This document shows, in pieces, positions 682 through 20,170 of a stretch of DNA of 21,551 nt (position 1 is the stretch's first letter; every line of letters starts with the position of its first letter). The notes beneath the pieces were generated by a model. The model had not been told where the DNA came from. It saw only the letters and a program-made list of their open reading frames with translations, and ran no database searches. The stretch spans positions 1 to 21,551 of IMG/VR virus record IMGVR_UViG_3300025138_009150, one strand, 5' to 3'. The DNA is from a virus. The translations under genes were made by a program, and so were the position numbers.

Positions 682-1812
682 ATGAGTTTTTGGGAAGTAA
701 AAGTAGATTATAAGGATTCAAGAAAAGTTCTTGTTATCCCAAATATTACAAATGCAAGTAATATAGAAAAGGATAGTTTTGTGGATGTATTATACAACCA
801 CATTATTGCTCTAGATAAAGTTGGGCAATATTTCTTTAATGTTATATTACCAAAACCCGTTAGAAAACTAAACTTAGAAAATGTAAAACAACACATCGCA
901 CCATTTAGTGGTGATATGATGAATCAGAGAGCATTTCCTCCATTAGATTTAATTAAAATAATGAAGGATACTGAATATGACGTTATTTTATCGCATTTAC
1001 CAGATTGGGTTCAAACCGGGCGTTATAAAAACTCTATTTCTACTAAAATAATCGGATATTGTCATTGGTGGGAATCAAAAACTGCTAATGGGATTGATAG
1101 AAGACCAGGTAAAGCTAAATGGTTATGGTTACCAATAGAATTATTAGGTGTACATCAGATGGATACTTGTTATGTTAATACACAAGACCAAAAGAGTAGA
1201 ATTTTAGAACAAGCAAAAGATATATTCAATGATGAGTTTATAAAAGAGTTGGATAATATTCTTGTTGTTTGGAATTTAGGGTTACCTAATAAACTAATAG
1301 TTAAAAAACCATCAACTCAAAAAAGAAAGGTTATTGTATTTAATCATCGAGCAGCTGCATATAAAGGATATCCTAAGTTTTTAGAATTAATGAGGGAATA
1401 TCGTAAAAGAAGAAATGATTTTGTAGTATGGGTTCCTCAGTTAAATGGTCAATCACCTGAAAGTTGGATAGATAACTCAAAAGCACCAAAGCATGAATAT
1501 TACCAAAGATTACAAGATACTATGGTTGGTATTCAAATGAGACAAACAAACTATGGTTGGAGTGTAAGTGGTACTGATTGTATGATGAATGGTACTCCTA
1601 TGGTTTGGCAAGAATCAGATTGTTATAGAGAAATAGACCCTAATGGTTTATTTTGGAACAAAAAGGTTGATTTCTTTAATATTTTAGATAAGATATTAGA
1701 TAATGATGATTATCGAAATGAATTGGAAATAAAAGCTATTGAAAGAGCTCATGAACTTTCTACAAACGAAGATAAAATGATAAAAGAACTACATAAAAAT
1801 CTTAGTAATTAA
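682..1812 (+). CDS. GT-B-like glycosyltransferase in the replication module
   Basis: This 376-residue protein has the layout of a GT-B glycosyltransferase. The N-terminal half is Rossmann-like (KVLVIPNI at 15-22, YDVILSHL at 99-106). The C-terminal half begins with VIVFNHRAAAYKGYPKFLEL at about 217-236, like the GT4 'hR...KG' segment. It also has a YGWSVSGTDCMMNGTPMVW stretch at 291-309, like the donor-binding region in which GT4 enzymes read ExFGxxxxEAxxxGxPvi; the usual first glutamate is not obvious. Length is close to the T4 DNA glucosyltransferases (about 350-400 residues), but I see no clear signature of either. The stop overlaps the polymerase start (TAATG), and the other glycosyltransferases lie more than 7 kb away. 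That context makes a DNA-base substrate conceivable; this is inference. A glycan acceptor remains equally possible. Confidence 0.6.
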   Translation: MSFWEVKVDYKDSRKVLVIPNITNASNIEKDSFVDVLYNHIIALDKVGQYFFNVILPKPVRKLNLENVKQHIAPFSGDMMNQRAFPPLDLIKIMKDTEYDVILSHLPDWVQTGRYKNSISTKIIGYCHWWESKTANGIDRRPGKAKWLWLPIELLGVHQMDTCYVNTQDQKSRILEQAKDIFNDEFIKELDNILVVWNLGLPNKLIVKKPSTQKRKVIVFNHRAAAYKGYPKFLELMREYRKRRNDFVVWVPQLNGQSPESWIDNSKAPKHEYYQRLQDTMVGIQMRQTNYGWSVSGTDCMMNGTPMVWQESDCYREIDPNGLFWNKKVDFFNILDKILDNDDYRNELEIKAIERAHELSTNEDKMIKELHKNLSN

Positions 1813-4334
1813 TGTATAAAAACGCATACTACCAACGAGAAAAGAACCTCGTTCACATTTGGGATGATAAACAAGGTTATAGAGCATTTCCTTATACTCG
1901 ATACGCTTATGAAAAAGCTGCTAATGGAACTTTTACTACTTTATATGGTGATAAGGTAAGTAAGATTTACAAATTTAAAGGAGATGATCCTGATTTATTC
2001 GAAAGTGATGTACCCGAAACTACAAGAGTTTTAGTAGATACTTATACTGATTCAGATTTACCATCAGAAGGACACGTTATCCTTACATATGATATTGAGT
2101 GTGAAATGGAGAGTGGGTTACCTAATCCAGAAGAAGCTACTAATGAGTTAACTTCAATTGCACTTCATGATTCCGCTACTAAACAATATTGGGTATTGGT
2201 AATGGATAAAGCTGGTGAGATGTTGGAAAAAACAACCGAATCAGCTATTGTACTTCCTTTCAGAACAGAAGAGGATATGTTAATGAAATATTTGGAGTTA
2301 TATGAGATGATAAATCCATCTATTGTAACTGGTTGGAATATCGATTACTTTGATACACCAATGTTGTACAATCGTATTAAAAGATTATTAGGTAAAAGAC
2401 ACGCTAATAGATTATCACCAATTGGTGAGTGTTTTTGGTCACCTTATCGTAAGAGATACTTTATGGCTGGTGTATCTTATTTAGATTACCTTTCACTTTA
2501 TAAAAACTTTACATATTCAGAATTAGATTCATATAGATTAGATTCTATTGCACAAAAAGAATTGGGTAGAGGTAAGATTGAATATGATGGAAACTTAGAT
2601 ATTCTTTTTAAAGAGGATATTGAAAAGTTTATTGAATATAACTTAGTGGATGTTGAGTTAGTTGTTGAATTTGATAGAAAACTACAATTCATTGATACTG
2701 CTAGAGGTATTTGTCACGCTGGACACGTTCCATATGAAGATTTTGTATATTCATCAAAATATTTAGAAGGAGCACTTTTAACTTATTTAAAACGAAAGAG
2801 TATCATAGCGCCTAACAAACCTGCTGATAGAAGAGAACGAATGGAAGCTCTTAAAGAAAATAAGCAAGAGAAGTTTATAGGAGCTTATGTAAAAGCACCA
2901 ATCGTTGGTAAGTATGATTGGATATATGATTTGGATTTAACATCTCTATACCCATCTATTATTATGACAATTAATATTTCACCTGAAACAAAGATGGGTA
3001 AGATTACTGATTGGAGTGCTGAGGATTTCGTAAAAGGTAAGAGAGATACTTGGGAAATTAATGGAGATACAATAACACAGGATAACTTAAAACTATTTTT
3101 TGAAAGAAGTAAGTTCTCAGTAGCATCAAATGGTGTTTTATATAGAACCGATAAAGTTGGTTGTATTCCTGATATATTAGACCATTGGTTTTCACAAAGA
3201 GTAGAGTTTAGAAAGTTGGAAAAGAAATATGGTGATAGTGGAGATAAGGAAAAGTATGCATTCTATAAGAAGAGACAGTTAGTACAAAAGATTCTTCTAA
3301 ACTCATTATATGGAGTATTAGGATTACCAGCATTCCGATTCTATGATGTGGATAACGCTACGGCAGTAACAACAACAGGTCAAACTGTGATTAAATCAAC
3401 TGCTGATATGACTAACATCAAATATAATAAAGAGTTGGAAACACCTGATGCTGATTCTAACATTTATATTGATACGGATTCGGTATTCTTTTCAGCAGCT
3501 CCCTTAATGGATAAGAGAATTCCTAATTGGAGAGATAATAACCAAGAAACAATAGCTGGGTTTGTAAATGATATAGCTGGTGAAGTACAAGATTATCTAA
3601 ATGATTTTTATGATATCCTTGCTAAAAAGGTATTCAATGTAGATAAGGATAATCATAGATTTGAAATTAAAAAAGAATACGTTTCAAAAGCTGGTATTTG
3701 GATTGCTAAGAAACGTTACGCACAATGGATTATATCTGATAATGGTGTACCATGTGATAGATTGGATGTAAAGGGATTGGATGTAGTACGTTCATCATAC
3801 CCAGCAGCATTTAGGAAATTTATGAGTGAAATACTTATTGAAATTCTTAGAGGTGATACCGAAGAACAATTAACAAATAGAGTTTACGATTTCAAAAATG
3901 ATTTGGTAAATATGGATGTTGTTAAGATAGCTAAAGCAGGTGGAGTAAAAAACTTATCAAAGTACATGCCTAAGAAGAGAGACCAAACGGCAATGTTTCA
4001 ATTCATTAGTGGTACACCAGCACACGTTAAAGCATCAATTGCATATAATCAATTGTTAAAACACTATAAAGTTCAAAATCAATATGAACCTTTAAAGGGT
4101 GGTGATAAAATAAAGTGGGTATATCTAAAACAAAATCCGTTTGGATTAGATGCAGTAGCTATGAATGGTTACAATGACCCACCACAAATTATGGAGTTAA
4201 TTAAAACATATATTAACTATGATAAAATCTTCGAAAGAGAACTTCTAAAAAAATTAGAAGATTTCTACGGAGCATTGGGATGGGGAGAAGTTCTATCATC
4301 CAAAAAGACAGCTGAAAAGTTTTTCTCTTTTTAG
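1812..4334 (+). CDS. 43: Family B DNA polymerase with 3'-5' exonuclease, T4 gp43-like
   Basis: This is the phage replicative polymerase, 840 residues against 898 in T4. All exonuclease and polymerase motifs are present: Exo I (YDIECE, D94/E96), Exo II (WNIDYFD, 175-181), Exo III (YNLVD, 276-280), motif A (DLDLTSLYPS, 373-382), motif B (K-x-x-x-NSLYG, ending at 501), motif C (YIDTDS, 552-557) and a KxY-type KKRY at 633-636. Proofreading and polymerisation should therefore both be active. The extreme C-terminus, KKTAEKFFSF, resembles the clamp-binding tail of T4/RB69 polymerase, which suggests tethering to the clamp encoded next door. The ATG overlaps the upstream stop (TAATG). Unlike T4, the gene precedes the clamp gene, and no regA-like repressor gene lies beside it. 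Confidence 0.95.
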   Translation: MYKNAYYQREKNLVHIWDDKQGYRAFPYTRYAYEKAANGTFTTLYGDKVSKIYKFKGDDPDLFESDVPETTRVLVDTYTDSDLPSEGHVILTYDIECEMESGLPNPEEATNELTSIALHDSATKQYWVLVMDKAGEMLEKTTESAIVLPFRTEEDMLMKYLELYEMINPSIVTGWNIDYFDTPMLYNRIKRLLGKRHANRLSPIGECFWSPYRKRYFMAGVSYLDYLSLYKNFTYSELDSYRLDSIAQKELGRGKIEYDGNLDILFKEDIEKFIEYNLVDVELVVEFDRKLQFIDTARGICHAGHVPYEDFVYSSKYLEGALLTYLKRKSIIAPNKPADRRERMEALKENKQEKFIGAYVKAPIVGKYDWIYDLDLTSLYPSIIMTINISPETKMGKITDWSAEDFVKGKRDTWEINGDTITQDNLKLFFERSKFSVASNGVLYRTDKVGCIPDILDHWFSQRVEFRKLEKKYGDSGDKEKYAFYKKRQLVQKILLNSLYGVLGLPAFRFYDVDNATAVTTTGQTVIKSTADMTNIKYNKELETPDADSNIYIDTDSVFFSAAPLMDKRIPNWRDNNQETIAGFVNDIAGEVQDYLNDFYDILAKKVFNVDKDNHRFEIKKEYVSKAGIWIAKKRYAQWIISDNGVPCDRLDVKGLDVVRSSYPAAFRKFMSEILIEILRGDTEEQLTNRVYDFKNDLVNMDVVKIAKAGGVKNLSKYMPKKRDQTAMFQFISGTPAHVKASIAYNQLLKHYKVQNQYEPLKGGDKIKWVYLKQNPFGLDAVAMNGYNDPPQIMELIKTYINYDKIFERELLKKLEDFYGALGWGEVLSSKKTAEKFFSF

Positions 4335-8117: not shown

Positions 8118-8984
8118 ATGGCAAAAGTAAGTTTTTCACAATACCAATTATATTCATCATGTCCTCGTTCATACAAACTGAGATACATTGATAGATTGGG
8201 ACAATCATCAGCTAATATCTATACTCTTTTCGGAACTGCTATTCACGAAACAATCCAACATTTCCTTTCGGTGATGTATGGTGTTTCTAAGAAACAAGCA
8301 ATGGAAATTGATACTGATAAGTTGTTGTTAGATTGGATGAGAAAAGAATACATCAAAGAGAACGATAAATTAACTGAAGGTAGTATATGTACCCAATTAG
8401 AGTTAGAAGAGTTCTATGGTGATGGTAGGTGTATATTAGAGTGGTTCAAAAAGAAGCTAGATAAGTTTTACAACAAAAGTGGTTTTGAATTAGTAGGAAT
8501 TGAGATTCCACTAAATGCAAAAGTAAAAGAAGGTGTAAACTTTATAGGTTTTGTTGATGTAGTGATGAGAGATTTATCAGATAACTCTATTATTATTATT
8601 GATTTAAAAACTTCTACTAGAGGTTGGAACAAATATCAAAAATCAGATAAGTATAAGAATGCACAAATCGTTATATACAAAAAGTATTATTCAGAATTAT
8701 TCAATATACCATTGGAGAAGATTAAAGTTGAATATCAGATTATGAGAAGAAAACTTTATGAAGATGCTCCGTTCCCAATTCCTTACATATCTAGGCATGT
8801 ACCAGCTAATGGTAAACCAACTGTAAATAGGGTTTATACTGAGTTTATGAACTTTGTAAATGAGGTATTTGATGATGAAGGTAAGTATAGAGATTTACCA
8901 TATCCTAAAGTTCCAGGTGATAGGCAAAAGAATTGTAGATTCTGTGAGTTTAAGACTAGAGGAATTTGTGATGGTAAAGCTTAA
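8118..8984 (+). CDS. PD-(D/E)XK nuclease, RecB/Cas4-like with Fe-S cysteines
   Basis: This 288-residue protein begins with the RecB/Cas4-type motif SFSQYQLYSSCPRSYKLRY (5-23), followed by a histidine motif (GTAIHETIQ, H43). The catalytic core contains GFVDVVM (D147) and IIIIDLKTS (D162, K164), the D...(D/E)xK signature. Cysteines at 15, 273, 276 and 284 match the one-plus-three pattern that holds an iron-sulfur cluster in Cas4 and AddB nucleases. An exonuclease acting on DNA ends in recombination, repair or genome processing is likely. No helicase motifs are present, so this is a stand-alone nuclease. It is transcribed from its own promoter between the replication genes and the glycan operon. 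Confidence 0.85.
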   Translation: MAKVSFSQYQLYSSCPRSYKLRYIDRLGQSSANIYTLFGTAIHETIQHFLSVMYGVSKKQAMEIDTDKLLLDWMRKEYIKENDKLTEGSICTQLELEEFYGDGRCILEWFKKKLDKFYNKSGFELVGIEIPLNAKVKEGVNFIGFVDVVMRDLSDNSIIIIDLKTSTRGWNKYQKSDKYKNAQIVIYKKYYSELFNIPLEKIKVEYQIMRRKLYEDAPFPIPYISRHVPANGKPTVNRVYTEFMNFVNEVFDDEGKYRDLPYPKVPGDRQKNCRFCEFKTRGICDGKA

Positions 8985-9013
8985 CGGAAAATAAATATCT
9001 ATATACTTATATA

Positions 9014-9021
9014 TATAAATA
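9014..9021 (+). promoter_or_regulatory. T4-type late promoter box upstream of the glycan operon
   Basis: The octamer TATAAATA is an exact match to the T4 late promoter consensus. It lies in the 51-base gap before the small gene at 9036, and the following ACT resembles the usual T4 context. The start point would be about 9027, just upstream of the ATG. By eye I saw no other exact copy in an intergenic position. The gap is almost entirely A and T, so chance occurrence is possible, but the presence of a gp45-like clamp makes late-promoter control plausible. Confidence 0.5.
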
Positions 9022-9035
9022 CTAACAATTATATT

Positions 9036-9233
9036 ATGAGTGTAGAAACTAAACTAACAACTGTAAAAATTATTAAAGGTGTTTATTCAAATTTTAAAAG
9101 AGTATCATTCGAATCGGATGTAACACTTCAGAAATTGGTAAACAGAACAGTTGAACGATATGTAAACGATGACGGATTTAGGAAAGAAATGAACGAATAT
9201 TCAAACCTTCAGATTTCCGGTTCGCAATTTTAA
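9036..9233 (+). CDS. Small ribbon-helix-helix-like protein
   Basis: This 65-residue protein has the pattern of a ribbon-helix-helix DNA-binding fold. A short strand TVKIIKG (9-15) is followed by a helix VYSNFKRVSFESD (16-28), a turn, and a second helix with TLQKLVNRTVERYVND (30-45). It probably dimerises and could regulate nearby promoters, including the AT-rich site directly upstream. The family assignment rests on pattern only. It is the first gene after the candidate late promoter and is followed after 24 bases by the first glycosyltransferase gene of the operon. Confidence 0.6.
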   Translation: MSVETKLTTVKIIKGVYSNFKRVSFESDVTLQKLVNRTVERYVNDDGFRKEMNEYSNLQISGSQF

Positions 9234-9257
9234 AAAAAAAAGTTATTTTAATAAGTT

Positions 9258-10643
9258 ATGAGTAAAAAGAAAAAGATTCTTCTCCTCTCAGACGATATGA
9301 GGATGAGTAGTGGTATCGCCACTATGAGTAAAGCATTGGTAATGGGTACTCTTAATGAGTACGATTGGTTCCAAGTAGGTGCAGCAATTAAACACCCTGA
9401 TAAAGGTAAAGTTTTAGATTTATCTGTTGATATGCAGAAAAGAACTGGTGTAGAAGATGCATCGGTTAAAATCTTACCTTGGAATGGTTACGGAAACGCT
9501 GATTTGTTAAGACAAATTATGAATTCCGAAAGACCAGATGCTATCCTTCATTTTACTGACCCACGTTATTGGACTTGGTTATATGATATGGAACACGAAA
9601 TCAGAGAAACCTGTCCAATTCTTTATTATACTATATGGGATGATTTACCAGACCCATTATATAATAGAAATTACTACGAAAGTTGTGATTGGTTAGGTGC
9701 TATTTCAAGACAAACATATGGAATAGTAAGTAGGTTAACTGCTTTGACTGATAAACCAACGTGGAAACCTCATTCAGATTGGCAAGTTTCATATGTACCA
9801 CATGGTATAAATGAAAACGAATTCAAACCAACTGATGTACCTTCAGATTTTAGAAATAAGATATTAGCTGGTAATGAGTATGATTTTATATTCTTTTGGT
9901 CAAATAGAAATATCAGAAGAAAACAACCATCTGATGTTATTATGGCATTTAAAGAGTTTTGTGATAAAATTGGTAAAGATAAAGCATCAAAAGCTGTATT
10001 ACTAATGCACACAGCACCATCTGATACTAATGGTACTGATTTACCAGCAGTAGTTGAAACTCTTGCACCTGATTGTAATGTAGTATTCTCAACTGCTAAA
10101 TTATCAACTGAACAACTAAATCTTCTCTATAATATGGCTGATTGTACAGTTAATATTGCTGGTAATGAAGGATTTGGTTTAACAACTGCAGAATCGGTTA
10201 TGAGTGGAACACCAATCATTGTAAATGTTACTGGTGGATTACAAGACCAATGTGGATTTAAAGTAGATGGTAAATATCTTACAGCTGATGATTACATTAA
10301 GATTGGTTCACTTCACAAATGGAGAGATTGGGAAGATAAAGTAACTTGGGGAGAATGGGCTACACCAATTTGGAGTAGAGCACAATCTCTGACAGGTTCA
10401 GTTCCAACTCCTTATATTTGGGATGATAAAATCGATGTAACTGAGTTATCAGAAAAAATGGAGAAAGTTTACAATACTCCAACCGAAGAATTAAAGAAAA
10501 ATGGGTTAGAAGGAAGAAGAGCATTTATTGAAGATATGGGATTATCTCAAAACAATATGTGCCAACAACTAATTAATGGTGTTGAGAGTACTTTCAAAAA
10601 CTTCAAACCAAGAAAACGATACGAATTATTTAAAATTGTATAA
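9258..10643 (+). CDS. Glycosyltransferase, GT-B fold (GT4-like)
   Basis: This 461-residue protein shows both halves of a GT4-type enzyme. The N-terminal acceptor domain opens with KILLLSDDMRMSSGIATMSK (6-25). A linker carries VPHGIN (180-185), and the C-terminal domain starts WSNRNIRRKQPSDVI (214-228), followed by the nucleotide-sugar site NEGFGLTTAESVMSGTPII (303-321) with both glutamates of the ExxxxxxxE pattern. It should transfer a sugar from a nucleotide donor with retention of configuration. No membrane segment is visible, so it acts in the cytoplasm. The leader ends AAGTTATG, as in the next gene, six bases beyond its stop. Acceptor unknown. Confidence 0.85.
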   Translation: MSKKKKILLLSDDMRMSSGIATMSKALVMGTLNEYDWFQVGAAIKHPDKGKVLDLSVDMQKRTGVEDASVKILPWNGYGNADLLRQIMNSERPDAILHFTDPRYWTWLYDMEHEIRETCPILYYTIWDDLPDPLYNRNYYESCDWLGAISRQTYGIVSRLTALTDKPTWKPHSDWQVSYVPHGINENEFKPTDVPSDFRNKILAGNEYDFIFFWSNRNIRRKQPSDVIMAFKEFCDKIGKDKASKAVLLMHTAPSDTNGTDLPAVVETLAPDCNVVFSTAKLSTEQLNLLYNMADCTVNIAGNEGFGLTTAESVMSGTPIIVNVTGGLQDQCGFKVDGKYLTADDYIKIGSLHKWRDWEDKVTWGEWATPIWSRAQSLTGSVPTPYIWDDKIDVTELSEKMEKVYNTPTEELKKNGLEGRRAFIEDMGLSQNNMCQQLINGVESTFKNFKPRKRYELFKIV

Positions 10644-11966: not shown

Positions 11967-12442
11967 TGAATCATTCATCAAAATATAGATTAATACAAGA
12001 GGGAACTGGTAAGAGAGTTTCTAAAGGAAACCTAAAACCATATGGTGTGTATAAAATAAGTACATACAAATATGCTGATGGTAATAAAGAAAGATTAGCA
12101 GGTTCTGAGGAAACAATTATATTTGTTACGGGAATATACAAAAAAAAGGTATCTGCACTTAAATTATCAAACATACCACCAGCTAACTTTTTCAAGTGGT
12201 TTAAAAAGTTAACAAAAAACGATAGTGTGGTTGAACGTGTATTAGAATCATTTCAGATTGGTTTATATGATTTAGGTGATGTATTTGATACAGGTGGTAA
12301 TAGAATATATGATGGTTATATAAAAAACAATAGAGATTTTGTAGCAAAGGGTGCTGCATATAGAACCTACAATATGGATGGAATTCAATATTCTACCGAA
12401 ATATTTTTTAAACAAGATACTTTAAAACAATACTATGGTTAA
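11966..12442 (+). CDS. Unknown protein inside glycan operon
   Basis: This 158-residue basic protein is of a family I do not recognise. It has no signal peptide, membrane segment or glycosyltransferase motif. The N-terminal part looks strand-rich (YGVYKISTYKYADGNK, ETIIFVTGIYKKKVSALKL). The centre is a helix with FFKWFKKL (about 73-80). The C-terminal part is rich in Tyr, Asn and Phe (AAYRTYNMDG, TEIFFKQDTLKQYYG). Its start overlaps the stop of the preceding gene and its end overlaps the next gene by 8 bases, so it is translated as part of the glycan operon. It may be a structural or accessory protein that the enzymes modify or bind; there is no direct evidence. Confidence 0.65.
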   Translation: MNHSSKYRLIQEGTGKRVSKGNLKPYGVYKISTYKYADGNKERLAGSEETIIFVTGIYKKKVSALKLSNIPPANFFKWFKKLTKNDSVVERVLESFQIGLYDLGDVFDTGGNRIYDGYIKNNRDFVAKGAAYRTYNMDGIQYSTEIFFKQDTLKQYYG

Positions 12443-13064
12443 TGTTACATATGGAATAACAGTTTGTAATGAAATAAAAGAAATTACAACATTAGTAAAC
12501 TTTCTTCATCCAAGAATACAATCTGATGATGAAATTCTCATTCAATATGATGAAGGTGGTGTAACTGATGATGTGATGGGTTATTTAAGAATTATAAACG
12601 ATTTACATGATAATGTAAACGTTATAGGATTTCCTCTAAACAAAGATTTTGCATCTTATAAGAATAACTTAAAGAATCATGCAAAAGGAATATTCATCTT
12701 CCAAATAGATGCTGATGAAGTTCCAAATGAATATTTGATTACAAATATGCATGATTTATTGGAATCTAATAAAGATATTGATTTATTCTTTGTTCCAAGA
12801 GTAAACACAGTTAAAGGTTTGACTGATGAACATATCCAAAAATGGAGATGGAATGTAAATGAAAAAGGTTGGGTCAATTGGCCTGATGTTCAGACAAGAA
12901 TTTATCGTAGAACATCTGAAATAGAATGGGAAGGTAAAGTACACGAAAGAATTAAAGGTTACAATACAATGACTTATTTACCAATAGAAGAAGATTATGC
13001 GTTGTATCATCCAAAGGATATTCAAAGACAAGAGAAACAAAACGCATTATACGAAACTATATAA
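12435..13064 (+). CDS. Glycosyltransferase family 2, short GT-A type
   Basis: This 209-residue GT-A protein begins TYGITVCNEIKEI (5-17), the usual GT2 opening. It carries the metal-binding DxD motif in QIDADEVP (90-97). WPDVQTRIYRR (149-159) and WEGKVHERI (165-173) are typical of the WaaE/KdtX and SunS-like branch of GT2, which adds hexoses to LPS core or to peptides. Nearly the whole catalytic domain is present; the usual C-terminal extension is missing, so it is short but probably active. It overlaps the upstream gene by 8 bases, and its stop directly abuts the next ATG (TAAATG). Confidence 0.83.
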   Translation: MVNVTYGITVCNEIKEITTLVNFLHPRIQSDDEILIQYDEGGVTDDVMGYLRIINDLHDNVNVIGFPLNKDFASYKNNLKNHAKGIFIFQIDADEVPNEYLITNMHDLLESNKDIDLFFVPRVNTVKGLTDEHIQKWRWNVNEKGWVNWPDVQTRIYRRTSEIEWEGKVHERIKGYNTMTYLPIEEDYALYHPKDIQRQEKQNALYETI

Positions 13065-13646
13065 ATGGTAAGACATAACTTTACAAAAGAAATTGTTACG
13101 GAGTTATTCAAAAAAGAACCATTAGATGTTTGGATTAACTCATTTGGAGGATGTAGGTCTAACTATATCAGAGATTGTATCAAAGATAGTTATACAACAT
13201 ATAATACAGCTTACGAACTTGCAGCTTGTCATTATGTTACTCCATTAGATGTACAAGTTGGTAGTGGTATCTTTTGTTATACCGAAGATGTTGGAATAGC
13301 AATATCATCTCAGATAAAAAGAGGTATGTATCATAACTTTCAAAAGTTAATGGGTGGTAACGAAGAAACTCCATTTGATATTGGTGTATGGTTAGAAAAC
13401 ATAGATACACAAATAGATAATTGGACTTCACCATCACATTTTCCAATTGTTATTATCAATACTGATGTAGTTGGTGATTATAAAGAAAAGTTTGAAGAGA
13501 TATATGAAGTAGATATGCTACCTTTTAAGAAAAGAAGTACATCTGAGTATATAGATGAGGTAAAGCCATATAATAAATTAATAGAAAAAATTAATAGTAA
13601 GTTAAGAAACTTACCAAACTTTACTGTAAATGAAAAAATTCAATAA
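13065..13646 (+). CDS. Sulfotransferase-like protein (degenerate PAPS loop)
   Basis: This 193-residue protein resembles small sulfotransferases in outline. VWINSFGGCRSNYIRDCI (22-39) sits where these enzymes have the 5'-phosphosulfate-binding loop (P-R-S-G-T-x-x-L), with R32 and S33 in place. A later DVGIAISSQIKRG (about 75-87) resembles the second PAPS-binding segment. FPIVIINTDV (about 126-135) fits a central strand. The loop is not canonical, so donor binding may differ; the alternative is an unrelated P-loop-like protein. It abuts the upstream gene and overlaps the next, a clearer sulfotransferase, by 17 bases, so the two may work as a pair. Confidence 0.4.
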   Translation: MVRHNFTKEIVTELFKKEPLDVWINSFGGCRSNYIRDCIKDSYTTYNTAYELAACHYVTPLDVQVGSGIFCYTEDVGIAISSQIKRGMYHNFQKLMGGNEETPFDIGVWLENIDTQIDNWTSPSHFPIVIINTDVVGDYKEKFEEIYEVDMLPFKKRSTSEYIDEVKPYNKLIEKINSKLRNLPNFTVNEKIQ

Positions 13647-14154
13647 AATATTCGTATGTGGTATATCAAGAACAGGTACCAAAAGTTTGGGACAATATTT
13701 AACTAAATTTAATTTAAAAACAGTACATCATGGTGGTAGACTTGCTAGTCCAATTCAAATAAATAAGATAGATGTTTTGTTAGATGATAAACAAACTCAA
13801 TTCGCATACGAAGTTCTTAACCAACAATACCCTAATTCACTTTTTATTTATACAAATCGTAATACCAACGAATGGGTAGATAAGATTATTTCTTGGAAAA
13901 CTGATTGTAGTTATATCTATTCTCAATTATTTAATGTAGATAATGGGGTAAGTCCAGATACAAAAGAAACATTAATAGCATTTAAAGAAGAACACTTCAG
14001 TAGATTTCAACTATTTGCAAATAAACTTACAAACGATAGAGTCTTATATTTGGATTTGGAAGATAAAGATAAGATTAAAGCTAAAAAAATTACTGAATTT
14101 TTAGGATGTAAAAATGCTGATAATGTGAAATACCCAAATATAAAATATAGATAA
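13630..14154 (+). CDS. Sulfotransferase family protein
   Basis: This 174-residue protein has the 5'-PAPS-binding loop in FVCGISRTGTKSLGQYL (8-24), as in the Sulfotransfer_4/17-type families (G-x-x-R-T-G-T-x-S-L). FIYTNRNTNEWVDK (72-85) corresponds to the 3'-phosphate segment. A helix and a strand VLYLDLED (about 138-145) close the fold. It would move sulfate from PAPS to a hydroxyl or amino group, most likely on the sugar assembled by neighbouring enzymes. It is shorter than most members (about 200-250 residues). No PAPS synthesis genes are in the window, so host PAPS would be used. Its stop overlaps the next start (TAATG). Confidence 0.65.
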   Translation: MKKFNKIFVCGISRTGTKSLGQYLTKFNLKTVHHGGRLASPIQINKIDVLLDDKQTQFAYEVLNQQYPNSLFIYTNRNTNEWVDKIISWKTDCSYIYSQLFNVDNGVSPDTKETLIAFKEEHFSRFQLFANKLTNDRVLYLDLEDKDKIKAKKITEFLGCKNADNVKYPNIKYR

Positions 14155-14929: not shown

Positions 14930-15769
14930 ATGATATCATTTTGTATTTCAACATATAATAACTTAGAATATTTGAAGATAGCAGTAGATAGTGTTCGTAA
15001 GAATTCTTACTACAAAAATTCTCCATTTATTATTCATGCTGAAAATTGTAATGATGGTACTGATGAATGGTTAAAAGAAAACTATGAAAGATATGGTTTG
15101 AATTGTTATCTTGATAAGAATGAAGTTCCTTTGGGAATTGGTGGAGGTATGAACTTTTGTGCTAGTAAAGTACAAACTGAATACATTATGTTCTTACATT
15201 CAGATTTCTATGTAACACCAAATTGGGATAAAGCTCTGATGGATACTCATAACAAATATCCAAATCAAAAATTGTGGGTAAATTCACATAGAGTAGAACC
15301 AAAAATGTTTCCTGATTCACAAAGTAGACCAGGTACAATTGTAGTTCCTAAAGAAACGTTTGGTGCATATCATAATGATTTCAATTCAGAGTTATTTGAT
15401 AAATACGCTAATGAATTCACATCTGAAAATGATTTTGAGATTCCAAAAGGTGAAGGTGTAAGTGGATTAATTAAAAAAGAACATTGGGATGAGATTGGTG
15501 GTAATGACCCATTATTTGCTCCTGCATCTTGGGATGATATGGATTTATTTCTAAGAATGTTACAAAGTGGATTTAGATTCATTCTACCAACTACATCATT
15601 AATTTGGCATTTTGGGGCAAGAGGTTCACATAGATTAGAAGAGAATGATGGAAAATCATCTGAAAGACAGATGAGAGCAGAATATAACAATTCTCAAAAG
15701 TGGTTTTCTAAATGGGGAGGAGCTCCCGTTTTTGATGAATATGAAATGATAAAAGGAATACAAAAATGA
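14930..15769 (+). CDS. Glycosyltransferase family 2
   Basis: This GT-A protein of 279 residues starts MISFCISTYNNLEYLKIAVD, the standard GT2 N-terminus. ENCNDGTDEWL (38-48) is the nucleotide-binding turn, HSDF (90-93) takes the place of the DxD motif, and WDDMDLFLRM (201-210) supplies the catalytic base region. I chose the ATG at 14930 because the upstream in-frame TTG (14903) would add nine residues before the conserved strand. The ATG lies two bases after the previous stop. The acceptor is unknown. The histidine in place of the first aspartate is seen in some GT2 enzymes and need not abolish activity. Confidence 0.82.
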   Translation: MISFCISTYNNLEYLKIAVDSVRKNSYYKNSPFIIHAENCNDGTDEWLKENYERYGLNCYLDKNEVPLGIGGGMNFCASKVQTEYIMFLHSDFYVTPNWDKALMDTHNKYPNQKLWVNSHRVEPKMFPDSQSRPGTIVVPKETFGAYHNDFNSELFDKYANEFTSENDFEIPKGEGVSGLIKKEHWDEIGGNDPLFAPASWDDMDLFLRMLQSGFRFILPTTSLIWHFGARGSHRLEENDGKSSERQMRAEYNNSQKWFSKWGGAPVFDEYEMIKGIQK

Positions 15770-16536
15770 TTACAGCAATATTAAATGGATATAAAAGAGG
15801 AGACCACCTTAATGAACAATTAGAAGCATTAAAAAATCAAACAGTACCACCTGATGAAATTTTACTATGGTATAATAATCCAGGTGATAACGATTTATTA
15901 AATTATGATATTGGAATGGAAATACCAGTTGCATATTGTAACTATAACTTTGGTGTGTGGGCAAGGTTTTACTTTGCTATGAATGCTAGGAATCCATATG
16001 TTGTAGTATTTGATGATGATACCATTCCTGGTAAAAGGTGGTTAGAGAATTGTATGAAAACAATGGAAACTAATGAAGGATTATTAGGTACAGTTGGATT
16101 ACTATATCCAAACCCTATACTACCTCAAAATTCATCTTACTATGAACATTATTTAAGGTTTGGATGGCCAACACCAGGTAATAATGATAAAGTAGTTCAA
16201 GTTGATTTGGTTGGGCATAGTTGGTTCTTTAAAAAAGAATGGTTATCCCACTTTTCAAGAGAATTACCTGAACCAAAGTATAACACTTGTGGTGAAGATA
16301 TGCACTTTTCTTATATGTTACAAAAGTATGCTAATATTCCTACATTTGTACCACCGCATCCAAGAGATGATATGGAACTTTGGGGAAGTTTAAAAGGTGG
16401 TGAATATGGTGGAGATGCAAACTCTTTATGGACTTCGAATCAAACAAACGTAGAAGGTACTCCATTCAGACAAGTTATGAACGAATATTTTAGAGAACAA
16501 AGATTAAAAGGTTGGAAATTAGTAAATGAAAGATAA
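15766..16536 (+). CDS. Glycosyltransferase family 2
   Basis: This 256-residue GT-A protein begins MITAILNGYKRGDHLNEQLE, contains LKNQTVPPDEILLWYN (22-37), and has a metal-binding FDDD motif at 82-85 (VVFDDDTIPGKRWLEN). HSWFFKKEWL (141-150) is followed by GEDMHFSYML (176-185), the typical ED acid/base region of GT2 enzymes. The start overlaps the previous stop (ATGA), and the end overlaps the epimerase gene by 11 bases. It is complete in the catalytic domain and has no membrane anchor. Confidence 0.83.
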   Translation: MITAILNGYKRGDHLNEQLEALKNQTVPPDEILLWYNNPGDNDLLNYDIGMEIPVAYCNYNFGVWARFYFAMNARNPYVVVFDDDTIPGKRWLENCMKTMETNEGLLGTVGLLYPNPILPQNSSYYEHYLRFGWPTPGNNDKVVQVDLVGHSWFFKKEWLSHFSRELPEPKYNTCGEDMHFSYMLQKYANIPTFVPPHPRDDMELWGSLKGGEYGGDANSLWTSNQTNVEGTPFRQVMNEYFREQRLKGWKLVNER

Positions 16537-17527
16537 ACCAATATTATTATGTTTTGGGACTAGACCCGAATGGTTAAAGATTAAGCCTTTAGTCAAACTT
16601 ATGGATAGGAGTGAGTATAAACTTTTATTTACAGGTCAGCATATTGACTTATTAAAAAATGTGGAAGTTGATTATAAGATAACAATATCAGAAAACTCAA
16701 ATAGATTAGATTCTATTATTTCAGATTGTATGTTACAATTTCCAAATGGAGATTTTAGAGGAGTATTAGTACAAGGTGATACTGGTTCTGTATTTGGATG
16801 TGGTTTAGCTGCATTTAATCGTAAGTTAAGAATCTATTATTTAGAAGCAGGTTTACGAAGTGGTAACTTAGAACATCCATATCCAGAAGAAGGATATAGA
16901 CAGATGATAGCTAGGATAGCTGATGTTAACTTTACACCAACTGAATTATCGGCACAAAATCTGAAAGATGAAAAAGTACATGGTGAAATTCATATAGTTG
17001 GTAATTCGGTATTAGATAACTTAATAGAGTTTGATAAACCAACTATGTTAAATAAGATATTGATTACATTACATAGAAGAGAAAATCATCATTGGATGGA
17101 TGAGTGGTTTACTGAGATTGAAAGATTAGCATTGGAATATCCTCATTATGAATTTATACTTCCTATACACCCCAATCCAAATGTTAAGAAGCATAGACCT
17201 ATTTTGAAAAACGTAACTGTTTTGGAACCATTGGAGCATAAAGATTTAATTAATATTATGTTAGAAACAAATCTAATTATTTCAGATAGTGGTGGTTTGC
17301 AAGAGGAGGGTACATTTTTTAATAAGAAGGTGATTGTATGTAGAAAAACAACCGAAAGACCTGAAGGTTTAAAAACAGGTCATTTACATATGTGTGAAAC
17401 CCCAAAACATTTAAATAATTTATTTGGAAAACTCATAGAAAATCCGTATATTAGTATATCATGTCCTTATGGAGATGGTTATACCTCAGAAAAAGTACTA
17501 AAAATATTAAGAAATGAAAAACTTTAG
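16526..17527 (+). CDS. wecB: UDP-N-acetylglucosamine 2-epimerase, non-hydrolysing type
   Basis: This enzyme interconverts UDP-GlcNAc and UDP-ManNAc, or the matching 2-acetamido-6-deoxy sugars. At 333 residues it is about 40 shorter than most members, but the active-site series is intact: FGTRPEW (10-16), GQH (37-39), QGDT (83-86, D85), EAGLRS (107-112), PEEGYRQ (120-126), LHRREN (182-187), HPNP (215-218), SDSGGLQEE (253-261) and RKTTERPE (273-280). The HRREN box is the one I associate with WecB/MnaA/FnlC enzymes rather than with the hydrolysing NeuC/LegG group. It overlaps both neighbours by 11-14 bases. It would provide a C2-epimerised precursor for the sugar made by the genes downstream. 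Confidence 0.9.
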   Translation: MKDKPILLCFGTRPEWLKIKPLVKLMDRSEYKLLFTGQHIDLLKNVEVDYKITISENSNRLDSIISDCMLQFPNGDFRGVLVQGDTGSVFGCGLAAFNRKLRIYYLEAGLRSGNLEHPYPEEGYRQMIARIADVNFTPTELSAQNLKDEKVHGEIHIVGNSVLDNLIEFDKPTMLNKILITLHRRENHHWMDEWFTEIERLALEYPHYEFILPIHPNPNVKKHRPILKNVTVLEPLEHKDLINIMLETNLIISDSGGLQEEGTFFNKKVIVCRKTTERPEGLKTGHLHMCETPKHLNNLFGKLIENPYISISCPYGDGYTSEKVLKILRNEKL

Positions 17528-18290
17528 AACTCATTTTATTACATTTAGAGATAAACTTAGAAACAAAGAACATTTTGCTTTCTCTAGGTTTTCTGATGGT
17601 GAAATGCATATATTACAAAACAAAGAATTAAAGTTAGATAGTAATCTAATACAAATAGGTGAAAAGAAGCAGGGTGGTGTCTACCAACCAGCAGATTTTA
17701 AACATTTTGACCCAAAGGAACATAGTTTTTCTCAAAAGAAATTAGTGGAATCTCTTCAATATAAACAACCAAACTATTACAAAGGTATTAGTTGTAGTTG
17801 TTGTGTTGGTAAACAAAACTTTGATTGGCAAGTTGATTTAGCTGGAGGAGATGATGAATCTCTAACTTGGGCTAACCTTTGGGTAAATGGAAACTACCCA
17901 TCATTTGTTAATGAAATATTACCTATATTTTATGGTAGGGATTGTGTATTTGTTGGACATGAAAGTGCTAAATTAGATAGATTACCATTTTTTGTAAATG
18001 ATTTTAGAGTTGGTTATAACGCTATGAGTAATAATTATGATACTATTGAAATTATGGCTAATTGGATTAGGGAAAATAATATAGAAAATCATCTATTTCT
18101 ATTTTCAGCTGCATCCTTTACTAACTTAGCAATATATCAGTTATTTAGAGAGTTTCCAAATAACACATACATTGATATTGGGACTTGTTTAACACCAATG
18201 ATGGATATGCCAACTCATAGAGGATATTTGGAAGCATATTGGGGTTATAAAGGAGGAAAAGATTTACAAAAGATTTGCGAATGGAACTAA
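17514..18290 (+). CDS. GT-D fold (DUF1792-like) putative glycosyltransferase
   Basis: This 258-residue protein carries FSRFSDGEMHIL (23-34), a match to the RFGDGE motif that marks GT-D (DUF1792) glycosyltransferases, where the DGE residues bind metal and nucleotide sugar. The C-terminal YIDIGTCLTPMM (219-230) and the following RGYLEAYWG fit the 'IDvG..ld' motif near the end of these proteins. A cysteine cluster, SCSCCVG (93-99), is an unusual addition. It overlaps the epimerase gene by 14 bases and the GNAT gene by 10. GT-D enzymes known from surface-protein glycosylation add glucose to an existing sugar; the donor here is unknown. Confidence 0.68.
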   Translation: MKNFRTHFITFRDKLRNKEHFAFSRFSDGEMHILQNKELKLDSNLIQIGEKKQGGVYQPADFKHFDPKEHSFSQKKLVESLQYKQPNYYKGISCSCCVGKQNFDWQVDLAGGDDESLTWANLWVNGNYPSFVNEILPIFYGRDCVFVGHESAKLDRLPFFVNDFRVGYNAMSNNYDTIEIMANWIRENNIENHLFLFSAASFTNLAIYQLFREFPNNTYIDIGTCLTPMMDMPTHRGYLEAYWGYKGGKDLQKICEWN

Positions 18291-18664
18291 TAAATTGTAC
18301 ACCAAAATATTGGGAATTTGTAAGAATTCTTAGAAATGATGAAAGAGTATTGGATGGATTTATAAAATCAGTTCATATTACTGAAGAGATGCAAACTGAA
18401 TATATGAGAAATCATTATAGATTTTATCGTATTGGATTGGTAGATAATAAACCCGCAGGATATGTTGGTGTAATAGAAGATGATATTAGAGTATGTACAC
18501 ATCCTGATTATCAAGGTAAAGGTTTAGGTAAGTTTATGATTAATGAATGTATGAAACTTTTCCCAACTGCATTTGCAAAAGTAAAAATAGATAATGAAAT
18601 AAGTATGAAGTTATTTGAAGCTTGTGGGTTTACAAAGAAATTTTATATTCTAACAAAAGATTAA
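18281..18664 (+). CDS. GNAT N-acetyltransferase, PseH-like
   Basis: This 127-residue GNAT protein has the acetyl-CoA pyrophosphate loop HPDYQGKGLGK (74-84) and the closing NEISMKLFEACGF (105-117). The N-terminal half (RNDERVLDGFIKSVHITEEM, 19-38) resembles PseH/LegH-type enzymes that acetylate the 4-amino group of a UDP-linked dideoxy sugar. That fits the aminotransferase and dehydratase encoded next. I take the ATG at 18281; an in-frame TTG six bases upstream is less likely. It overlaps the GT-D gene by 10 bases. Family membership is secure; the sugar substrate is inferred from neighbours. Confidence 0.8.
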   Translation: MELINCTPKYWEFVRILRNDERVLDGFIKSVHITEEMQTEYMRNHYRFYRIGLVDNKPAGYVGVIEDDIRVCTHPDYQGKGLGKFMINECMKLFPTAFAKVKIDNEISMKLFEACGFTKKFYILTKD

Positions 18665-18665
18665 T

Positions 18666-19292
18666 ATGAAACACAGTCCATACAAAATAGTAAGAATGTT
18701 TGAAGAGGATATAGCTGAATATACAGGTTCTCCATATGCTGTATCAATTGATAGTTGTACAAATGCACTATTCTTAGTTTGTAAGTATTTGGAAGTGAAG
18801 GAAGTAACTATTCCATCACAAACTTACTTATCAGTACCACAATCCATAGTTCACTCTGGAGGTGATGTTATCTTCGATAAGAGAGCAGAAACTAATCATT
18901 GGAAGGGTATGTACCAATTGAAACCATATCCTATCTGGGATGCCGCAAAACGATTGACATCGAATATGTATGTTCCTAATCAGTTTATGTGTTTATCATT
19001 TCACATTAAAAAACTACTTCCTATTTGGAAAGGTGGTATGATTTTAACCGATGATAAAGATGCATATAATTGGTTTAAGAAAGCAAGATACGAAGGTAGA
19101 AGTGAAAAGTACTATAAAGATGATGATATAACATTTCATGGTTGGAATATGTATATGACTCCTCAACAAGCAGCACATGGTTTATCAATGTTCCAAAACT
19201 ATCCAGAACATATGAGTGATTTGGGTGAAGATAATGGATATAGAGATTTAACTGAATTTACAGTATTTAAAGATTTTAAAACAATAGAATAA
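18666..19292 (+). CDS. DegT/DnrJ/EryC1-type aminotransferase, half-length
   Basis: The protein matches the large PLP domain of sugar aminotransferases: SIDSCTNALFLV (27-38), TIPSQTYLSV (48-57), WDAAKR with PLP-binding D92 (91-96), SFHIKK with the probable Schiff-base lysine K116 (111-116), then GGMILTDD (123-130) and NMYMTPQQAAHGL (161-173). The family is normally about 370-400 residues; this one stops at 208, so the C-terminal small domain is missing. The next gene starts in a different family 14 bases later, and no continuation is visible in another frame. It may be a specialised mini-enzyme, need a partner, or be decaying. PLP-dependent amination of a 4-keto sugar fits the neighbouring genes. 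Confidence 0.75.
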   Translation: MKHSPYKIVRMFEEDIAEYTGSPYAVSIDSCTNALFLVCKYLEVKEVTIPSQTYLSVPQSIVHSGGDVIFDKRAETNHWKGMYQLKPYPIWDAAKRLTSNMYVPNQFMCLSFHIKKLLPIWKGGMILTDDKDAYNWFKKARYEGRSEKYYKDDDITFHGWNMYMTPQQAAHGLSMFQNYPEHMSDLGEDNGYRDLTEFTVFKDFKTIE

Positions 19293-19306
19293 TAAAAAAT
19301 ATAATA

Positions 19307-20170
19307 ATGATACAAATTGAAAAAAACAAATTATATCTCGTAACTGGTGGTGGTGGTTTTTTAGGACAACCATTGGTAAAGCATATATTAAACGAAGGTG
19401 CACGAGTTAGAATTATAGGTAGAGATGAAGCTACATTGGTAATGATGAAACAAAGACATCCAAATATAGAAATACATCCAGGTGATATTTCAGATGAATT
19501 TGAGGTAAGACAATCAATGAAAGATGTAAATGGTGTATTCCATCTAGCTGCATCTAAGCATGTTGGTTTAGCCGAAACGTTTGTACGTGAGAATCTAAAA
19601 AGTAACGTAATTGGTTCATTTAACATATATGAACAATCCTTAAAGCAAGACTTAGATTTTGTATTAGCAATTTCTACTGATAAGGCAGCACAAGTTGTTG
19701 GTGTATATGGAGCTACTAAACTGATGATGGAAAGATTATCAAAACAATATCAGAATTTAAATTCAAATTGTAAATATCGTATTGTACGATATGGTAACGT
19801 ATTATATTCAACAGGTTCAGTATTATGTAAATGGAAAGATTTAATAGAACAAAAGAAAGAGTTAATTGTAACCGAACCTGATGCAACAAGATTCTTTTGG
19901 ACAGTAGAACAAGCTATTGATTTAATTTTAGATTGTATGGAAAATGCAACTGATAGTACACCATATTGTCCGAGTATGAAATCAATGAGTATAAAAAGTT
20001 TATTAGGAGCAATGGTTGAAAAATATGGTAACTCTAGTTGGGAAAAGTATCCAATTAAAATAATAGGATTACAACCAGGTGAAAACTTTCATGAGAAGGT
20101 TTTAGATGAAGGTCCTTTTTCAAATGAAGTTGAACAATTTACTATTGAAGAGATTAAAGAATTAATATAA
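19307..20170 (+). CDS. UDP-sugar 4,6-dehydratase-like SDR (PseB/CapD/FlaA1 type)
   Basis: This extended short-chain dehydrogenase has 287 residues. The NAD(P) loop is VTGGGGFLG (12-20). ASKHVGLAE (82-90) matches the family's 'ALKHVPxAE' signature. STDKA (123-127) and YGATK (134-138) form the catalytic Asp-Lys and Tyr-Lys set of UDP-GlcNAc 4,6-dehydratases. RYGNVLYSTGSV (161-172) and TEPDATRFFWTV (189-200) complete the Polysacc_synt_2 pattern. The reaction would be UDP-GlcNAc to a 4-keto-6-deoxy sugar, feeding the aminotransferase and acetyltransferase encoded just upstream. It is shorter than PseB (about 330) only at the C-terminus. The leader is AT-only and 14 bases long. Confidence 0.87.
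   Translation: MIQIEKNKLYLVTGGGGFLGQPLVKHILNEGARVRIIGRDEATLVMMKQRHPNIEIHPGDISDEFEVRQSMKDVNGVFHLAASKHVGLAETFVRENLKSNVIGSFNIYEQSLKQDLDFVLAISTDKAAQVVGVYGATKLMMERLSKQYQNLNSNCKYRIVRYGNVLYSTGSVLCKWKDLIEQKKELIVTEPDATRFFWTVEQAIDLILDCMENATDSTPYCPSMKSMSIKSLLGAMVEKYGNSSWEKYPIKIIGLQPGENFHEKVLDEGPFSNEVEQFTIEEIKELI

Follow-up and report, generated by a model that had tools for sequence, protein, structure and literature searches.

The sugar-nucleotide cassette

The window analysed here is a 21,551-base viral contig of an aquatic phage (IMG/VR record IMGVR_UViG_3300025138_009150), which carries a T4-like replisome segment, then a PD-(D/E)XK-like nuclease, and then a long glycosyltransferase island. Within the island, five open reading frames (ORFs) on the plus strand (16526-20170) encode, in order, an epimerase, a GT-D glycosyltransferase, a GNAT N-acetyltransferase, an aminotransferase (AT) that we call mini-AT for its small size, and a dehydratase. 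All five are open, and consecutive genes overlap or abut: the ORFs for epimerase, GT-D and GNAT have mutual overlaps of 10-16 nt, mini-AT starts 1 nt past the GNAT ORF, and the dehydratase starts 14 nt past mini-AT. Each gene is under purifying selection (pN/pS, the ratio of nonsynonymous to synonymous polymorphism, 0.14-0.49). The preliminary description of this DNA listed four types of sugar-nucleotide enzyme with a GT-D transferase between them, and family matches far beyond chance bear this out. We propose, with a probability of about 60%, that the last three genes (18275-20170) make up a pathway of three enzymes whose product is an N-acetylated 4-amino-4,6-dideoxy sugar nucleotide.

The dehydratase (19307-20170, 287 aa) matches Polysacc_synt_2 (PF02719, 3.4e-63; 214 bits, cut-off 20.2) as a CapD/FlaA1-type NDP-HexNAc 4,6-dehydratase. 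It aligns to FlaA1 (2gn4) almost from end to end (1e-37), the active site STDKAAQVVGVYGATK being intact, and to CapE at 5e-37; GxxGxxG is present as GGGGFLG at residue 14, accompanied by T124-D125-K126 and Y134xxxK138. Tyr134 and the best matches to FlaA1 and CapE suggest that the enzyme may invert C5. The active site agrees with the PseB/CapD type named in the preliminary description, but the score against the PseB equivalog TIGR03589 (165.9 bits) is far below its cut-off of 407.75. The GNAT protein (18275-18664, about 127-129 aa, with an ATG at 18281) matches Acetyltransf_1 (PF00583, 1.3e-10; 42 bits, cut-off 20.7) and carries the acetyl-CoA motif Q/RxxGxG/A as QGKGLG. The PseH type named in the preliminary description does not appear among its NCBIfam matches, a negative that holds only if the library includes a PseH model.

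A half-size DegT aminotransferase

The gene between these two, mini-AT (18666-19292), encodes 208 aa, whereas known relatives have about 360-390 and solved DegT sugar aminotransferases about 357-440. It matches DegT (PF01041) in two pieces (3.6e-20; 72.9 bits, gathering cut-off 19.8) and reaches 46.3 bits against the PseC equivalog TIGR03588, well short of the cut-off of 423.5. Alignment to full-length DegT proteins of the same loci reveals three losses: the N-terminal stretch, the C-terminal small domain and, between the strand that follows G65 and the aspartate that contacts the ring of pyridoxal 5'-phosphate (PLP), an inner segment of about 40 aa. What is left is the large domain only, without the two-domain DegT architecture (about 350-400 aa, with a C-terminal small domain), and we class mini-AT as a reduced DegT variant and not as a canonical member. 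The earlier assignment to the DegT type holds with respect to PF01041, K116 and D92, but the half-size of the protein had been overlooked.

No substitution of the Schiff-base lysine (Lys116) or the PLP-ring aspartate (Asp92) occurs in 110 relatives with identities as low as 31%, and E13, P50, Y83, S111, F112, G123, G124, G144, R145, G159 and G172 are likewise invariant; the lysine aligns with that of 3bn1 and of the full-length DegT proteins. Members of the family are mostly 180-240 aa long, none is full-length, and pN/pS against close relatives is 0.14-0.24. Because these residues are invariant, the short length is family-wide and pN/pS is low, the short form does not reflect decay. An origin as a frameshifted or truncated pseudogene was rejected; the same three deletions are found across the family, which is under purifying selection.

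The AlphaFold model of mini-AT has the DegT large-domain fold (pLDDT 96.4, pTM 0.92). Among solved structures it comes closest to sugar transaminases, with GDP-perosamine synthase and PseC among them (Z 18-20, rmsd 2.7-3.4 over about 200 residues), and every listed chain has at least 357 residues. A profile scan found the family in at least 562 viral stretches, with 45 more in the GTDB genome set, where the carriers include Prochlorococcus single cells, Neomarinimicrobiota, Alphaproteobacteria, Bacteroidota and DPANN archaea. One fully supported branch parts all mini-ATs from eight full-length enzymes in a quick tree, whose long branches led us to use it for this separation only.

The absence of the small domain and the inner segment throughout the family would also fit a protein that lost transamination together with the small domain, and that now acts as a PLP-dependent dehydrase or as a non-catalytic partner of the acyltransferase. 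We consider this quite unlikely. The DegT dehydrases ColD and E1 have a histidine at the Schiff-base lysine position, whereas Lys116 is retained in all 110 members; the PLP-pocket residues persist along with the short length to the lowest identities; and the partnership with a dehydratase and an N-acyl- or N-formyltransferase, described below, suits the formation of an amine.

Mini-AT also occurs in other settings. Flavobacterium phage immuto (L031) has a full-length DegT aminotransferase (8292-9491) and a mini-AT (12001-12645) in one island. A mini-AT is also present in the cultured Synechococcus phage S-SCSM2R. A 252 kb relative carries a second mini-AT within L048:4729-7924; a weakly GT-D-like protein precedes it there, and a homologue of acyl-CoA dehydrogenase and a protein of hexapeptide-like type come after it. 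At L003:1141-6049, a DNA polymerase B is present as two separately started halves, which match residues 1-544 and 546-824 of the window polymerase, with a hexapeptide acyltransferase and a mini-AT in between; this arrangement suggests a split polymerase or a chimeric assembly.

Gene order and the proposed pathway

In 29 of 118 representatives, the gene immediately upstream of mini-AT belongs to the GNAT family of the window, whereas 2000 trials of random placement gave a mean of 3.0 and never more than 9; a loose hexapeptide pattern was too permissive for this statistic, for which the GNAT neighbour count alone was used. In L086 and L075 GNAT and mini-AT are fused into single proteins of 344 and 354 aa. 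Other acyltransferases take the GNAT position elsewhere: a hexapeptide protein (L003, L023), a PglD-like protein (L033) or a formyltransferase (L175; PF00551, 1.5e-14). Directly downstream of mini-AT, ten mostly cellular loci have a GDP-mannose 4,6-dehydratase (GMD)-like gene, four of them scored by hidden Markov model at 335-371 bits against a cut-off of 415 and the others grouped by sequence similarity. The RmlB dTDP-glucose 4,6-dehydratase directly follows mini-AT in L106 (427 bits, cut-off 365; RmlA is also there), and an RmlB-type dehydratase follows the GNAT-mini-AT fusion in L086 (318 bits). The order N-acyltransferase, mini-AT, 4,6-dehydratase recurs with differing dehydratase classes. 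This recurrence is our main argument that the AT would aminate an NDP-4-keto-6-deoxy sugar and that GNAT would acetylate the resulting amine.

Two kinds of neighbourhood may involve other acyl groups. The Prochlorococcus single-amplified genomes (SAGs) L170 and L175 contain a row of a formyltransferase-like gene, mini-AT and a GMD-like gene, which may constitute a compact cellular pathway to GDP-N-formylperosamine. At L014:8629-10643, the genes after mini-AT encode an acyl-carrier-protein-like product, an AMP-binding enzyme (PF00501) and a FabG-like short-chain dehydrogenase/reductase (SDR), a combination that suggests an unusual N-acyl group.

In the proposed pathway, the CapD/FlaA1-type dehydratase would convert UDP-GlcNAc to a UDP-4-keto-6-deoxy sugar, probably with inversion at C5, since the FlaA1-type tyrosine is kept. 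Mini-AT would then aminate C4 in a PLP-dependent reaction, and GNAT would use acetyl-CoA to acetylate this amine, giving a UDP-2,4-diacetamido-2,4,6-trideoxyhexose (UDP-AltdiNAc or UDP-QuiNAc4NAc). Families, catalytic motifs, folds, gene order, purifying selection and GNAT-AT fusions were computed; the substrate, the stereochemistry, the activity of the reduced AT and the acceptor are what we infer. A phage-made N-acylated amino-deoxy sugar, as put forward in the preliminary description, is still the best reading, with catalytic motifs kept in dehydratase, AT and GNAT and a gene order that recurs elsewhere. Loss of catalytic residues, set beforehand as the observation that would count against it, was not seen in dehydratase, epimerase or AT. 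The product may be novel, as was also suggested, but both candidates named here, UDP-QuiNAc4NAc and UDP-AltdiNAc, would be sugar nucleotides that are already known.

Several observations weigh against the three-enzyme route. No recognised acyltransferase is directly adjacent to mini-AT in 63 of the 118 representatives. A CapD-type dehydratase behind mini-AT was seen in this window only, and this type was not found in any of the 17 related records (up to 271 kb), whose SDRs do not exceed about 50 bits with PF02719 and reach up to 180 with PF01370. The GNAT protein matches no sugar-specific NCBIfam model. Finally, that a DegT enzyme is active without its small domain is a prediction.

The dehydratase and the genes before it have different histories. 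About 20 relatives share the syntenic block GT2-epimerase-GT-D-GNAT-AT; its first gene encodes a GT2-family glycosyltransferase (15766-16536, plus strand; PF00535, 4.6e-7) and immediately precedes the epimerase in about 20 relatives (78-89% identity). The dehydratase has 11 relatives in other phages (59-77%), without a mini-AT nearby, and those in L034-L043 adjoin other SDR-like genes or a full-length DegT AT. Beside the relatives in L035, L039 and L040, the Pfam match to an RmlD-type reductase is partial or missing, and we do not claim one. Since the AT block and the dehydratase have separate relatives, the window joins two modules. One could assume that two unrelated modules simply met by recombination, that mini-AT and GNAT use a keto-sugar from a host or other phage enzyme, and that the dehydratase feeds another route, for example to a 6-deoxy-HexNAc with a reductase elsewhere in the genome. 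The lack of a CapD-type dehydratase among the AT-block relatives and the neighbourhoods of L034-L043 fit this explanation. However, the dehydratase is encoded on the strand of the AT, begins 14 nt past it and occupies the place of GMD or RmlB at other mini-ATs. We regard a chance encounter as possible but rather doubtful, and consider that the join is probably functional, with the dehydratase supplying the substrate class of the AT.

A further, improbable elaboration is that mini-AT, though reduced to the large domain, remains a complete catalyst, a fold-type-I sugar aminotransferase in an obligate complex with the neighbouring acyltransferase (GNAT, hexapeptide or formyltransferase), which would replace the lost small domain and receive the amine directly; phages would then swap 4,6-dehydratases in front of this fixed core to obtain different amino sugars.

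The first gene of the cassette encodes a non-hydrolysing UDP-GlcNAc 2-epimerase of the WecB type (16526-17527, 333 aa; Epimerase_2, 4.6e-59). It scores 220.8 bits against the WecB equivalog TIGR00236 (cut-off 210.15) and keeps the catalytic residues D85, E107, E121 and H183 as well as the motifs GTRPE, GD85 and SDSGGLQEE. The preliminary description combined all four enzymes in one mixed pathway. Acting in series on one sugar, with the epimerase working on the diacetamido product or an intermediate, they would make a previously unknown 2-epimeric sugar. The genes are indeed contiguous and overlapping, and the Megavirus L-QuiNAc route places a C2-epimerase after a dehydratase/5-epimerase (PMC9614988). 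However, the score above the WecB cut-off predicts UDP-GlcNAc as the substrate, the epimerase is found in only 24 of 116 mini-AT loci, and it is conserved within the glycosyltransferase block of about 20 relatives, where the CapD-type dehydratase, which comes from a different phage module, was not found. We consider the four-enzyme series very improbable and do not uphold the mixed pathway. The epimerase would produce UDP-ManNAc or act on a later sugar; the best interpretation is that it supplies UDP-ManNAc separately from the three-enzyme route.

The GT-D protein (17514-18290, 258 aa, motif RFSDGE) has no Pfam match itself, and sequence searches with it alone were empty; 23 of its 51 relatives match PF22882 (GT-D-like). 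Its AlphaFold model (pLDDT 95.5) matches the DUF1792/GT-D structures 5v4a, 4pfx and 4phr at Z about 16 over about 200 residues, with TagA/TarA next (Z 9.7) and unrelated rows at about 4, and R25, D28, G29 and E30 are invariant in the 51 relatives. The fold match and the matches of the relatives confirm the earlier GT-D assignment. GT-D and GT2 would use donors of the kind made by the cassette within the surrounding glycosyltransferase island.

In agreement with the preliminary description, no NeuB-type synthase (PF03102) was found among the scanned window ORFs, nor in the 17 related records, which are up to 271 kb long and possibly incomplete. A nonulosonic acid (pseudaminic or legionaminic acid) pathway was rejected for lack of support. 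The lipid-linked sugar initiators PF02397 and PF00953 were not found in 14 records, which leaves a self-contained lipid-linked polysaccharide pathway unsupported and makes it probable that the enzymes of the island add sugars to virion parts or alter glycans made by the host; the most likely targets would be virion parts or glycans on the host surface.

Elsewhere in the island, a sulfotransferase-like protein (13630-14154; PF17784, 1.5e-13) suggests that the glycan may also be sulfated. The glycan islands of two relatives contain collagen-repeat (PF01391) proteins (L014:655-2721, L026:1488-3320), possible glycosylated fibres and a possible acceptor. The DNA polymerase B of the window (1812-4334) has its closest isolate in Microcystis phage Mel-JY01 (50.7%), and both this phage and immuto have a comparable layout of replisome or nuclease followed by glycosyltransferases.

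Comparison with known systems

If active, the 208-aa mini-AT, about half the size of the matched solved sugar aminotransferases, would show that this portion of DegT is sufficient for transamination. It also marks a large, mostly viral family with modular partners, namely dehydratases of the GMD, RmlB and CapD types and enzymes for acetyl, formyl and perhaps other acyl groups, so that phage-made amino sugars may be predictable from neighbouring genes. Such sugars on virions or host surfaces would be relevant to receptor masking and superinfection.

Mini-AT shares with the DegT/DnrJ/EryC1/StrS sugar aminotransferases (PseC, GDP-perosamine synthase, ArnB, WecE) the large PLP domain, the Schiff-base lysine, the PLP-ring aspartate and the GG and GxN motifs, but lacks their small domain, N-terminal stretch and about 40 aa in mid-chain. 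The dehydratase resembles the UDP-GlcNAc 4,6-dehydratase/5-epimerases FlaA1/PseB, CapE and Megavirus Mg534 (4tqg) in GxxGxxG, TDK and YxxxK, with matches of 1e-37 to 1.5e-24 over most of the chain, whereas its 287 aa compare with about 320-345 in these enzymes. The GT-D protein has the fold (Z 16) and the R-x-x-DGE motif of the DUF1792 glycosyltransferases, but only 12-13% identity to them and RxSDGE instead of RxGDGE. In GDP-N-formylperosamine biosynthesis (GMD, perosamine synthase, formyltransferase), the nucleotide sugar and the acyl donor differ from those proposed for the window and the classical perosamine synthases are full length; nevertheless, the formyltransferase-mini-AT-GMD order of the Prochlorococcus SAGs parallels the GNAT-mini-AT-dehydratase order of the window. 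Marine viromes are reported to include perosamine-type (per/rfbE), gmd and neuA genes (PMC10653327).

The closest viral parallels come from giant viruses (PMC9614988). The Mimivirus UDP-Vio4NAc set (R141, L136, L142) is biochemically characterised, and a UDP-D-QuiNAc4NAc set (Ma465-Ma467) is predicted in Moumouvirus australiensis, which has an additional CapD-like dehydratase/5-epimerase and 2-epimerase in Ma458-460; Megavirus has a UDP-L-RhaNAc route. Like the window, the giant-virus sets combine a virus-encoded 4,6-dehydratase, 4-aminotransferase and N-acetyltransferase. However, they belong to viruses of eukaryotes and use a full-length AT (352-384 aa), and the Mimivirus acetyltransferase is PglB-like and not a GNAT, whereas the window holds a phage cassette in a T4-like replisome neighbourhood. 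A literature search that covered few subscription papers found no report of a reduced, large-domain-only DegT enzyme in phages or of its acyltransferase fusions. The compact AT, the most unusual part of the cassette, therefore appears to be undescribed: virus-encoded amino-sugar pathways are already known from giant viruses, and the real novelty appears to be the reduced DegT enzyme with its acyltransferase fusions.

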